Below are positions 902 to 21,221 of a stretch of DNA of 22,162 nt, one piece after another (the stretch's first letter is position 1; the number at the start of each line of letters is the position of its first letter). The DNA is from a virus: IMG/VR virus record IMGVR_UViG_3300043803_000215, positions 1 to 22,162 of that record, one strand, 5' to 3'. The translations under genes were made by a program, and so were the position numbers. The notes under the pieces are model-generated. The model was not told where the DNA came from. It ran no database searches and saw only the letters and a list, made by a program, of their open reading frames with translations.

Positions 902-1074
902 AGTCTATAATTAATCTACCTGAGAGTGAGATAATGACAAAGAGGTCACTATCACAGCTTAAACAGATTAAAGTGGCTCACACTAAGGTAATTGATAAAG
1001 AGTGCTTTTGCTCTACAGTTAGAAGGAAGGTATGGTATAAAGACTTTTTATCCTGGTATGAAAAGAATGCTTGA
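871..1074 (+). CDS. Conserved small CxC protein upstream of the sigma-like gene
   Basis: I choose ATG 871 (MLTETDIQLIESIINLPESE), giving 67 residues, because the longer frame from 787 only shadows the membrane-protein gene. The second half carries KECFCSTVRRKVWYKDFLSWYE, a C-x-C pair followed by a basic and aromatic stretch. From memory, similar CFCS-type small proteins lie beside sigma-like genes in other Bacteroidota phages, but I cannot check this here. The function is unknown; a nucleic-acid or polymerase contact is possible. It overlaps its upstream neighbour by 31 bases and its downstream neighbour by 8, which suggests translational coupling with the sigma-like gene. Confidence 0.6.
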   Translation: MLTETDIQLIESIINLPESEIMTKRSLSQLKQIKVAHTKVIDKECFCSTVRRKVWYKDFLSWYEKNA

Positions 1075-1597
1075 CCAATACTTGCAAAAAAACTACACAG
1101 AGGTGCTCAAATACACTAAGCACTTTATTCAACGACTCAAAATACCTAGTTCTATAGAAGCTGATGCTGTCATCAATAATGCTTACCTTCATTGTGTTAA
1201 GTTAGAGATAGAAGGTATCACAGAAGACAAAGCTAAGAGCTATCTACTGAACACAATCAAATATGAGTTAATCTGGACTCAAGGCTCAAGGACAAAGAAA
1301 GATGATATCTATAGATCACATGAGTATCTAGGTGACTCATTAGATGACTCAAGCGACATTGAGCACAAGGTTAATCTAGAGGATAGCTATAATTTTAAGA
1401 AGGCAATGGTGGAGATATATCGTAACTCTTTGGATGATAGAATTAAAAAGATTATCTTTGAGGCATACTATGACAAAGGTCACTCAACACAAACAGCACT
1501 GGCTAAGTACTTTGACATTAATAGCACATCAGCTTTCTTTCTAATCAAAGAAATAAAACAAAATATTAAGGAAATACAATATAGGTATAAAGACTAA
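1067..1597 (+). CDS. Phage sigma-70-family-like factor (ECF-like)
   Basis: With ATG 1067 (MLDQYLQKNYTEVLKYTKHF) the protein has 176 residues, the size of an ECF sigma factor. The N-terminal helical half has a region-2-like pattern: EADAVINNAYLHC at about 31-43, then AKSYLLNTIKYEL at about 56-68. An acidic linker (about 88-106) follows. The C-terminal half looks like region 4: SLDDRIKKIIFEAYYDKG then TALAKYFDINSTSAFFLIKEIKQ (about 143-165), a helix-turn-helix that would bind an upstream promoter element. Such proteins would redirect host RNA polymerase to phage promoters. It sits just before the packaging and structural genes, as expected for a late regulator. A copy of the 15-bp repeated motif lies inside its last codons. 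The sigma assignment is by pattern only; another HTH regulator is possible. Confidence 0.7.
   Translation: MLDQYLQKNYTEVLKYTKHFIQRLKIPSSIEADAVINNAYLHCVKLEIEGITEDKAKSYLLNTIKYELIWTQGSRTKKDDIYRSHEYLGDSLDDSSDIEHKVNLEDSYNFKKAMVEIYRNSLDDRIKKIIFEAYYDKGHSTQTALAKYFDINSTSAFFLIKEIKQNIKEIQYRYKD
1575..1589 (+). promoter_or_regulatory. Repeated 15-bp motif, copy 1 (candidate late promoter)
   Basis: TACAATATAGGTATA, lying in the last codons of the sigma-like gene. It is the only copy whose end is not a start codon: the next ATG is at 1602, 27 bases after the motif begins. This favours a promoter over a pure translation signal. A TAA lies 21 bases upstream of the motif. It would drive the 1602 gene and both terminase genes. 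Confidence 0.5.
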
Positions 1598-2280: not shown

Positions 2281-2329
2281 TCTTAATAATAATAAATATA
2301 AGTACTACTAATAGTGGTATGATTTGTCT

Positions 2330-3481
2330 ATGGAGCTAAATTCAACTGTCATCTTTCAAAAGAATCACGAGGCACTCAATGACTCAAGTCATAGGTTTAT
2401 AATCAATGAAGGTGGCTCAAGGTCAAGTAAGACTTACAGCTTATGTCAGCTGATAATTGTCTATTGTCTACAGAATCCTAATAAGGTAGTATCAATCATT
2501 CGCAAAACTTTCCCAGCATTGAGAGCTACAGTTATGAGAGACTTCTTAGAAATCATGAAGAGCTTAGAAATCTATGACGTGGCTAGACATAATAAGTCAG
2601 AGCACATCTACACATTTGGTAATGGCTCAATAGTTGAATTCTTCTCAGTTGATGATGAGCAAAAGATAAGAGGTAGAAAACGTGACCTTGCATGGTGCAA
2701 TGAAGCTAATGAGCTGTACTATGATGACTTCACTCAGTTAAACATGAGGACAGAAGGCAAGTTAATCTTTGACTACAATCCATCTGAGAGCAACTCTTGG
2801 CTGTACGAGCTACCAGCTGAGGAGTCAATTCTAATCAAGTCTACCTACAAAGACAATCCATTCCTACCTGAGAGCATCAAGAGACAGATTGAAGACTTGA
2901 AGAGGACAGATGAGGCACAATATCAAATCTATGCACTAGGAGAGAAAGCTATCTCTAAGAGCAACATCTATTCTAATTGGTCCTTTGTCAAGCATAGACC
3001 TGCTAAGTTTACTGACTATGTGTATGGCTTAGACTTTGGTTATAATCACCCTACAGCATTGGTCAGAGTCTATTGGAGAGACAAAGACATCTACATTGAG
3101 CCTATCATCTATGAGAGCTACTTGACCACTACTGACTTGATAGCTAGAATGGATCAACTAGGGATTGAGAAGAGCATCAATATACTAGCTGACTACTCTC
3201 GACCTGAGACTATAGCTGAAATTGATAGGGCTGGATATTACATTGAGAATGCTAACAAGGTAGTCAAGCAAGGGATAGATAACATTAAGACCTTTGGTGT
3301 ATTCTGCGAGGACCATCCAGCAATCAAGAAGGAATACGAAAACTACAAGTGGAAAAAAATAGGTGATACAATAACAGATGAGCCAGTCAAATTGTGGGAT
3401 GATGCTATGGATGCTATCAGATACGCTGCAACCTACATCAAGAAGGAATACTACACAGATGACAGCTATATTTCCTTCTAA
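2330..3481 (+). CDS. terL: Terminase large subunit (ATPase-nuclease)
   Basis: 383 residues from ATG 2330; a TTG six bases earlier is an alternative start. It powers DNA packaging at the portal and cuts the genome. Walker A-like GGSRSSKT lies at residues 28-35. The Walker B and catalytic Glu region is DLAWCNEANE, about 119-128. The RNase H-like nuclease domain shows its acidic residues in GLDFG (Asp235), ILADYS (Asp288) and the C-terminal WDDAMDAIRYA (Asp357/358/361). The layout and the YYDDF segment fit the PBSX/Terminase_3 group. Length is slightly short for the family, but all motifs are present, so it should be active. The portal gene is not next to it but about 14 kb downstream. Confidence 0.95.
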   Translation: MELNSTVIFQKNHEALNDSSHRFIINEGGSRSSKTYSLCQLIIVYCLQNPNKVVSIIRKTFPALRATVMRDFLEIMKSLEIYDVARHNKSEHIYTFGNGSIVEFFSVDDEQKIRGRKRDLAWCNEANELYYDDFTQLNMRTEGKLIFDYNPSESNSWLYELPAEESILIKSTYKDNPFLPESIKRQIEDLKRTDEAQYQIYALGEKAISKSNIYSNWSFVKHRPAKFTDYVYGLDFGYNHPTALVRVYWRDKDIYIEPIIYESYLTTTDLIARMDQLGIEKSINILADYSRPETIAEIDRAGYYIENANKVVKQGIDNIKTFGVFCEDHPAIKKEYENYKWKKIGDTITDEPVKLWDDAMDAIRYAATYIKKEYYTDDSYISF

Positions 3482-3498: not shown

Positions 3499-3513
3499 TA
3501 CAATATAGGTATG
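3499..3513 (+). promoter_or_regulatory. Repeated 15-bp motif, copy 2 (candidate late promoter)
   Basis: TACAATATAGGTATG; the final ATG is the start codon of the first tail gene. It lies in the 29-bp gap after the large terminase. TAATTG begins 20 bases upstream of the motif. It would start the tail tip and tape measure operon. Confidence 0.6.
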
Positions 3514-10750: not shown

Positions 10751-10765
10751 TACAATATAGTTATG
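10751..10765 (+). promoter_or_regulatory. Repeated 15-bp motif, copy 3 (candidate late promoter)
   Basis: TACAATATAGTTATG, one base different from the consensus (T for G at position 11). It fills the whole gap between the tail-completion-like gene and the fibre gene, and its ATG is the fibre start. TAACTA begins 20 bases upstream, inside the preceding coding sequence. Confidence 0.6.
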
Positions 10766-14910: not shown

Positions 14911-14926
14911 AGATTTTAATTTTTAA

Positions 14927-14934
14927 CAAATATA
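14927..14934 (-). promoter_or_regulatory. Host-type -7 box for the minus-strand pair
   Basis: Read on the minus strand the sequence is TATATTTG, a perfect match to the Bacteroidota -7 box TAnnTTTG, 16 bases before the ATG of the chaperone-like gene. No TTTG or TTG lies 19-21 bases upstream, so the promoter may be weak or need an activator. It overlaps the presumed upstream element (TAA at 14924) of the phage motif pointing the other way. Confidence 0.5.
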
Positions 14935-14942
14935 ATACTTTT

Positions 14943-14957
14943 TACAATATAGGCATG
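14943..14957 (+). promoter_or_regulatory. Repeated 15-bp motif, copy 4 (candidate late promoter)
   Basis: TACAATATAGGCATG, one base different from the consensus. The ATG starts the protease-scaffold gene. The gap of 44 bases separates divergent genes, so a rightward promoter is required here, and this is the only strong candidate. TAACAA begins 19 bases upstream of the motif. Confidence 0.65.
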
Positions 14958-17513: not shown

Positions 17514-17528
17514 TACAATATAGGTATG
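17514..17528 (+). promoter_or_regulatory. Repeated 15-bp motif, copy 5 (candidate late promoter)
   Basis: TACAATATAGGTATG, identical to the consensus. The ATG at 17526 starts the next gene. TAATTA begins 20 bases upstream, at the end of the terminator T-run. The location just after a strong terminator is the best context evidence that the motif is a promoter. Confidence 0.7.
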
Positions 17529-19171: not shown

Positions 19172-19734
19172 TCTATTTTATAACAGAGACTTACCTTAAG
19201 GTCAACACACCAATCACAGCCAATGTAGATGTGACTGATGTTACTCCATACATAGCAACTCAGGCACAGCTTAGAGTGATGCCTATCTTAGGTACTACTT
19301 ACTATAATTATTTACTTAATGCGTACAATGCTCAGACATTAACAAATGATGAGGAGATACTTGTTACCTTTATACAGCCAGTAATTGCATGGAGAAGTGC
19401 AGAAGATGCTATCTTTGGATTGACTTATCAGTTAAAGAACAAAGGACTGCAGACTCAATTTGGTGACTTCTCAGCATCAGTGAGCAGAAGTGAGGTGGCG
19501 TTTGGTATGGAGCACTATGCACAGAAGGCATCATTTTATGAGCAGAGATTGATTAGATATCTTATAGCTAATAAAGACTTGTACCCGGGTTTCACAGATG
19601 ATACTAACAGAGACACTGACTTAAGACCTATGATTGATGCTTGTTCTTGCAATTGTGTTGGTCAATGTCATAGTGGATGCCCTTGTGGTGGTATGCGTGA
19701 GAATGGTTATAACAATTCAATACTTATACTCTAA
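19168..19734 (+). CDS. Head-tail adaptor-like protein (DUF6712-like), Cys-rich end
   Basis: 188 residues: MIYFITETYLKVNTPITANV, a helical protein (YIATQAQLRVMPILG, ILVTFIQPVIAWRSAEDAIF, HYAQKASFYEQRLIRYLIAN) of a type that follows the portal in Bacteroidota phages and probably corresponds to a connector or head-completion protein. The last 40 residues have an unusual cluster, CSCNCVGQCHSGCPCGG (about 158-174), with six cysteines and one histidine in 17 residues, which could bind zinc or form disulfides. It overlaps the portal gene by four bases and couples to the next gene by TAATG. The family call is from memory and context. Confidence 0.6.
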   Translation: MIYFITETYLKVNTPITANVDVTDVTPYIATQAQLRVMPILGTTYYNYLLNAYNAQTLTNDEEILVTFIQPVIAWRSAEDAIFGLTYQLKNKGLQTQFGDFSASVSRSEVAFGMEHYAQKASFYEQRLIRYLIANKDLYPGFTDDTNRDTDLRPMIDACSCNCVGQCHSGCPCGGMRENGYNNSILIL

Positions 19735-20800: not shown

Positions 20801-21075
20801 TGAAGACACCCAAAAAGAAAAAAGACATCAACATCAACATTGACACTAAGAATGTGGATGTTAAAGTTACTCGTAAAAATGGCACTACAGAGGTTAAAGT
20901 GGACACTCCTAAGGTAGACGTAGACTTTCATAAAGATAGTGACTCTAAGAGCTTAAAAGTGGACACTGAGAAGGTAGATGTACAAGTGAACAATGGTGAG
21001 GTGAATGTAGATGTTAATGAGCAGTCAGGATTTGTAGGTAAGTTAATAAAATTCTTGCTTAGAAGAAAAAAATAG
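20800..21075 (+). CDS. Cationic VDV-repeat protein with amphipathic basic tail
   Basis: 91 residues in three parts. The N-terminus is basic (MKTPKKKKD). The middle is a run of alternating strands with VDV units: KNVDVKVTRKNGTTEV, KVDTPKVDVDF, KVDTEKVDVQV, VNVDVNE. The C-terminus, GFVGKLIKFLLRRKK, can form a strongly cationic amphipathic helix like that of an antimicrobial peptide. I recognise no family. It starts one base before the endolysin stop and ends the lysis block, and it is the last gene before the terminator region. A role in disturbing the outer membrane, as proposed for disruptin-type phage peptides, is an inference. A structural beta protein is the alternative. Confidence 0.6.
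   Translation: MKTPKKKKDININIDTKNVDVKVTRKNGTTEVKVDTPKVDVDFHKDSDSKSLKVDTEKVDVQVNNGEVNVDVNEQSGFVGKLIKFLLRRKK
20894..20983 (+). repeat. 60-bp-spaced direct repeat within the VDV gene
   Basis: AAAGTGGACACT then AAGGTAGA and GTA occurs at 20896 and again at 20956, with changes only in one codon (CCT or GAG) and one wobble base. The period of 60 bp equals 20 residues, so this is an in-frame duplication that lengthened the protein. Confidence 0.7.
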
Positions 21076-21084
21076 TTATATTTG
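21055..21084 (+). promoter_or_regulatory. Host-type promoter P1
   Basis: TTG (21055-21057), exactly 19 bp, then TATATTTG (21077-21084), an exact Bacteroidota -7 box. The -33 box lies within the end of the VDV gene. Transcription would begin near 21088-21092 and meet a terminator about 70 bases later, so its product would be a short RNA or a read-through transcript. Confidence 0.75.
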
Positions 21085-21190: not shown

Positions 21191-21221
21191 TTTGCATATA
21201 TGAAAAGACTTACTAACTTTG
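21191..21221 (+). promoter_or_regulatory. Host-type promoter P2, full consensus
   Basis: TTTG (21191-21194), 19 bp, TAACTTTG (21214-21221): an exact fit to the Bacteroidota housekeeping promoter. Transcription would start near 21226-21228 and read the small-gene cluster from 21252 onwards. It likely serves early expression. Confidence 0.8.

Follow-up and report, generated by a model that had tools for sequence, protein, structure and literature searches.

A diverged sigma-like phage protein as the probable reader of bipartite late promoters in an uncultured phage group

Introduction

Which protein reads the short motif that recurs ahead of the late gene modules of an uncultured phage, and is that protein encoded beside the first copy? 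The window, by which is meant the whole stretch of 22,162 bases that was analysed, comes from an IMG/VR virus record and encodes late functions, among them terminase, portal and head proteins. At about 33% identity, its large terminase resembles the enzymes of Parabacteroides, Bacteroides and Flavobacterium phages, and on this ground the host phylum of this uncultured, freshwater phage group is probably Bacteroidota.

The first-pass annotation had named a sigma-like protein, encoded just upstream of the late modules, as the likely reader of the motif. That proposal is supported, at the level of sequence, by the presence of both -35 and -10 boxes, by selection acting on DNA, and by concerted change of the motif within clades. 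The reading that we regard as likely, with some room for doubt, is that a diverged ECF-like phage sigma factor directs host polymerase to five bipartite late promoters; more broadly, the phage very probably steers host RNA polymerase to its late genes by a switch of its own. The -35 box, the start codon borne by the promoter, and a conserved host-type promoter that overlaps the fourth site go beyond what the earlier account had described.

A bipartite motif before the late modules

The motif consists of a -35-like TAAACA or TAACA box followed, after 17 nt, by AATATA within ACAATATAGGTATG, and it occurs five times in the window, always on the plus strand. P1 (1554-1588) has a -35-like TAAAACA at 1554-1560 and the core ACAATATAGGTAT at 1576-1588, and falls within the 3'-terminal part of the sigma-like gene; after it come an 85-aa ORF (1602-1859) and then the first late genes, those for the terminase small subunit (1849-2280) and large subunit (2324-3481), both on the plus strand. 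The other four copies supply the start codon of the gene that follows. P2 (3479-3513), with a weak -35-like TAATTG and the core ACAATATAGGTATG at 3500-3513, provides the ATG at 3511 of a 497-aa ORF; P3 (10731-10765; TAACTA, core ACAATATAGTTATG at 10752-10765) that of a 538-aa ORF at 10763; P4 (14923-14957; TTAACA, core ACAATATAGGCATG at 14944-14957) that of a 318-aa ORF at 14955 with a match resembling head maturation proteases; and P5 (17493-17528; weak -35-like TTAATTA, core ACAATATAGGTATG at 17515-17528) that of a 111-aa ORF at 17526, which is followed by the portal gene. Two positional claims of the first-pass annotation hold, as the sigma-like gene directly precedes the first module that bears the motif, and the copy at 1574-1588 overlaps its last codons, encoding the QYRY end of the protein.

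With at most two mismatches allowed, the core finds the five copies, and shuffled sequences yield about 0.5 matches; at three mismatches the count in the window (6 against 3.5 expected) is not significant, and a bipartite matrix is needed. When a bipartite weight matrix built from other clades alone was applied to the window, these five copies and no others were recovered; they score 18.3-34.8, compared with 4.4 for the next best site and 11.8 for the best of 20 shuffles. A logo of 30 non-redundant copies from outside the sigma gene reads TTwTAAmmAAwT followed by ACAATATAGGTATG or ATAATATAGGTATG. The spacing of 17 bases from the AAACA-like box to AATATA is fixed in 27 of 35 scored copies, and counting gives the same 17 at every site of the window, the upstream box being weak at P2 and P5. 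When relatives' loci were chosen by protein alone, 319 of 320 copies lay on the gene strand. Among near-complete records, G015 and G013 have five copies and G001 has four exact ones, all within the late half. Judged from the logo and the held-out matrix, in which -35 and -10 elements stand at fixed spacing, the motif is a predicted bipartite promoter with a -35 box. A palindromic operator was also considered; the ATAC...GTAT arms occur in the window clade and are not retained in other clades.

The gene and its family

The earlier note had placed a 176-residue ORF at 1067-1597. The frame itself is real, as it is open from 992 to 1597, and its start has been revised: the gene more likely begins with the ATG at 1058 (1058-1597, plus strand; MKRMLDQ...), giving a product of 179 aa, since L041 and other relatives carry a stop just upstream, followed by ATG AAG. 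Successive scans of IMG/VR returned 191, 183 and finally more than 500 matching stretches, with identity down to 42-44%, and the regulator thus occurs in hundreds of environmental contigs though missed by annotation. A tblastn search with three family members against 50,697 GenBank phage records gave zero matches. With no GenBank phage relative found and with curated profiles missing the protein, such a regulator is invisible to routine annotation. The one bacterial sequence found to carry a member, in a search of bacterial genomes, is the MAG contig L297 (JAIXRY010000011.1; 29,629 bases), which is labelled as a bacterium, shows the gene order of the window phage and a variant of its promoter, and may represent phage DNA that was binned with a bacterium.

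Selection on the P1 copy and concerted change among clades

In 52 of 52 sequences (less than 97% identical, and found by protein rather than by motif) the P1 codons are invariant, CAA TAT AGG TAT, whereas elsewhere tyrosine is encoded by either TAC or TAT, and five different codons serve one conserved arginine. This difference indicates that the overlap is a maintained DNA signal and not an accident of protein sequence; judged by its codons, P1 is subject to selection at the DNA level.

The -10 box also changes in concert. The L297 clade has the AAG variant AATATAAGTATG in every copy (P1, P2 and P3), and in the L326 clade P1 and P3 both read AATATAGTTATG (AGT), the end of the protein shifting with the motif from QYRY to QYSY. 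In clade Y (L354, L357, L363-L366, L369) the sigma gene ends without QYRY and the P1 motif is lost; the copy after TerL there reads AATATTGGTATG, AATATTGTTATG or AATATATATATG, with TAAACA kept. Concordance of -10 variants within genomes was 0.69 against 0.59, and 0 of 5000 permutations were as high, a significance that is overstated because the genomes in the test are related. This concerted variation was counted as evidence suggesting that one trans-acting factor reads all copies, and the natural variants AGG, AAG, AGT and TGG make its specificity testable by promoter swaps.

Evidence for a sigma fold

Searches of Pfam, PHROGs and PDB-chain sequences with the protein gave no informative match, and the Pfam models of sigma regions 2 and 4 (Sigma70_r2, Sigma70_r4_2) did not match it. 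Nevertheless, when 24 members were compared with NCBIfam, 10 of the 15 families matched were sigma models, foremost among them PRK12520, with 9 members, and TIGR02937, with 8 (best E 2.4e-4), and a wider set of members again ranked sigma models first. On the window protein TIGR02937 reaches E 0.009 and aligns residues 5-170 with model positions 3-161 of 165, both domains being in register; the score of 15.6 bits falls short of the cut-off of 42.9, and as no family's curated threshold was reached, the protein is termed sigma-like rather than a proven family member. Profile-profile comparison against some dozen bacterial ECF sequences yielded an alignment of 139 columns, colinear through both domains (E 0.045, score 19.3), a score to be read against the 19-28 obtained by some unrelated phage families.

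The claim that the protein has region-2-like and region-4-like halves is borne out by both AlphaFold models, in which region 2 is followed by region 4 in a predicted sigma fold. For the first model (pLDDT 62) the top eight PDB entries were sigma factors or sigma-like domains (E 0.1-1.3). The second, built from a wider alignment, has pLDDT 66, with most of the first 76 residues at 80-91; its best PDB match is 9n9q_C, from an RNA-guided transcription complex (E 0.008, probability 0.99), and the next seven are sigma factors or sigma-like domains, judged by entry description. Region 2 of sigmaE on its -10 element (4lup_C) superposes on this model at 3.2 A over 82 columns. Among viral structures, the first-ranked Foldseek match is a homologue without a name, and the 30 that follow include many annotated as phage sigma factors. 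Structure prediction had been proposed as a check that a confident unrelated fold would fail; sigma factors rank first for both models, and no such fold emerged. In the second model the linker is poorly modelled. As no PDB match reaches E 0.001 in Foldseek, the fold support is of moderate strength, and profile and fold evidence combined make a good but not conclusive case for a sigma factor.

The main competing view is that the protein is an activator of the RinA/ArpU type, known from phages of Gram-positives, whose helix-turn-helix (HTH) half would bind upstream of the -10 box and aid the host sigma factor without itself being one. Region-4-like domains are hard to distinguish from activators of this kind, with which the window protein shares a C-terminal HTH match and a proposed role at late genes, and the RinA model (TIGR01636) does match 9 of the 24 members, at best with E 0.0012. 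On the window protein, however, the match scores 15 bits against a cut-off of 31.9 and is restricted to residues 113-170, whereas TIGR02937 spans both halves; RinA/ArpU proteins have no region 2, and it is the N-terminal half that is best modelled and matches region 2 of sigmaE. Moreover, the -10 box of the motif is unlike the host TAnnTTTG, and it varies between clades where it should be constant if read by a host sigma factor. An activator of this type is therefore unlikely.

Co-occurrence of gene and motif

If the sigma-like protein is the reader, a genome with the motif and without the gene would speak against it, as the first-pass annotation recognised. Exact motif matches across IMG/VR include a first class with the -35-like box, in contigs that share the marker genes of the window phage, and the same search did not find the bipartite promoter outside this phage group. 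When the bipartite-motif records were searched whole, nine carried the gene and the remaining ones ended before its expected position, as judged from the fixed distances between motif sites; every such record that covers the locus has the gene. A second class of lone exact matches (L101, L133 and others), without -35 box and without marker genes, probably reflects chance.

Co-occurrence is a limited guide in one respect, in that the same association would be seen for any other protein conserved in the lineage. It could accordingly be argued that an alternative host sigma factor or another phage protein reads the promoter and that the sigma-like protein serves elsewhere, the more so as there are further early genes without assigned function. 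Against this, a scan of ten early proteins of G013 gave a methylase, a DnaA-C-like HTH protein, an ERF-like annealing protein, an exonuclease, a nuclease and others without assignment, none of which resembles a polymerase or a sigma factor; the motif variants follow phage clades; and the sigma-like gene adjoins P1, which in most clades lies within it. A different reader is thus very unlikely.

Comparison with known sigma factors

In the literature searched, there is no report of such a sigma factor in Bacteroidota phages. The closest analogue to the sigma-like protein appears to be gp47 of the Salmonella phage 7-11, a phiEco32-like phage, which acts with host polymerase at two-element late promoters, GTAAtg-16-aCTA, with a 16-nt spacer, and whose closest homologues include sigma24 of Winogradskyella, itself a member of the Bacteroidota (PMC8948821). 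By analogy, both would be phage sigma factors with a region 4 that serve bipartite late promoters. The promoter sequences are unrelated, however, and the phages are of different type; moreover, in 7-11 a late promoter, P48, feeds the sigma gene, whereas in the window phage a copy lies inside the gene's 3' end, and no motif copy was found upstream of it. A looser likeness is to gp36 of phiEco32, which switches middle and late genes through a private -10-like element, tAATGTAtA (PMC4331800, PMC8948821). The resemblance there is that of a phage sigma factor with its own promoter motif; phiEco32 promoters lack a -35 element and gp36 lacks a recognisable region 4, in contrast to the conserved -35 box of the window phage. 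The tblastn search described above gave no match to the gp36/gp47 group.

Bacterial ECF sigma factors (TIGR02937, and TIGR02985 of Bacteroidota) share with the window protein its size, domain order, in-register match below threshold and predicted fold; they differ in that all scores lie under curated cut-offs and the Pfam models for regions 2 and 4 are silent. T4 gp55, which the earlier note had taken as precedent, lacks region 4 and works with gp33 and gp45, and a -35 box is absent from T4 late promoters. A private -10-like late promoter, a phage sigma factor and host polymerase would be common to the two systems, but the window protein has a C-terminal HTH region and its promoters a conserved -35 box. 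For these reasons gp55 is the weaker analogy, and 7-11 gp47 comes closer.

A proposed late switch and leaderless starts

The scheme that would follow is a simple one, and it makes this uncultured phage group a clear candidate for an early-to-late switch. The host primary sigma factor would read the early operon, whose last gene is that for the sigma-like protein; this protein, with its region 2 and region 4, would bind host core RNA polymerase; and polymerase carrying the phage factor would then start at P1-P5, serving the modules for packaging, tail, head and portal. What we infer here is the binding to polymerase, the recognition of the promoters, the point at which transcription starts and the timing.

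Transcription would most likely start at the A of the ATG that the promoter carries, yielding leaderless late mRNAs. In 27 of the 30 logo copies the motif ends in a start codon; a pyrimidine stands just before the A of the ATG, and this A is taken as +1 because a pyrimidine-purine step stands there at the right distance from the -10 box, an assignment drawn from copies free of the logo search pattern, which itself fixed the pyrimidine and ATG positions. In the literature, leaderless genes are recognised by a -10-like signal that lies some 10-12 nt ahead of the start codon (PMC3160421). With the start codon inside the promoter, most late mRNAs are probably leaderless, and leaderless late translation becomes directly testable; transcripts of Flavobacterium johnsoniae are mostly leadered, 87% having more than 10 nt (PMC6847099). 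Exceptions with an ATG further downstream are P1 of the window clade, L049, L218 and a few others. P1 of the window is predicted to be leadered, since the next gene's ATG stands at 1602, about 15 nt downstream of the presumed start of transcription.

That the motif so often ends in a start codon would also be expected of a translation-start or other RNA-level late-gene signal unrelated to the sigma-like protein. Such a signal is highly improbable, given the second box upstream at fixed spacing, the P1 copy of the window clade that keeps the motif without an ATG (TATAAAG) while its gene starts downstream, and a position -3 that is usually G, when it is A at -3 that helps translation in F. johnsoniae (PMC6847099).

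Host-type promoters and the overlap at P4

The published host-type consensus is TTTG/TANNTTTG (PMC6847099), and sites of this type (TTG, 17-21 nt, TAnnTTTG) precede the early operons of the phage; additional matches within coding sequence are probably due to chance. One host-type -7 box, TATATTTG, lies on the minus strand at 14927-14934, where it overlaps the -35 box of P4 and belongs to a divergent operon of two ORFs (14910-14365 and 14423-13659; 181 and 254 aa). No other operon of the late region runs on the opposite strand; both ORFs of this one are conserved in relatives, have no Pfam or PHROGs match, and are not clearly paralogous. The overlap (window 14911-14957) is present in each of the 11 non-redundant relatives (L291, L294, L181, L184, L194, L121 and others), and its conservation suggests competition of host and phage sigma factors at one site. 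A bolder proposal, that a single factor changes transcription and translation together, with most late operons leaderless in a phylum of chiefly leadered transcripts, and at P4 displaces the host sigma factor, silencing the opposing operon while the late head genes are switched on, stands at slightly worse than even odds in our estimation.

Two further host-type promoters stand in tandem after the late genes, on the plus strand between 21055 and 21221. The first, TTG-N-TATATTTG (21055-21084), follows the late genes, and the second, TTG-N-TAACTTTG (21192-21221), precedes the early genes and has a near-identical counterpart in G013 at oriented position 19511. The early region of G013 also encodes a 449-aa C5 cytosine methylase (L293, 8350-9696).
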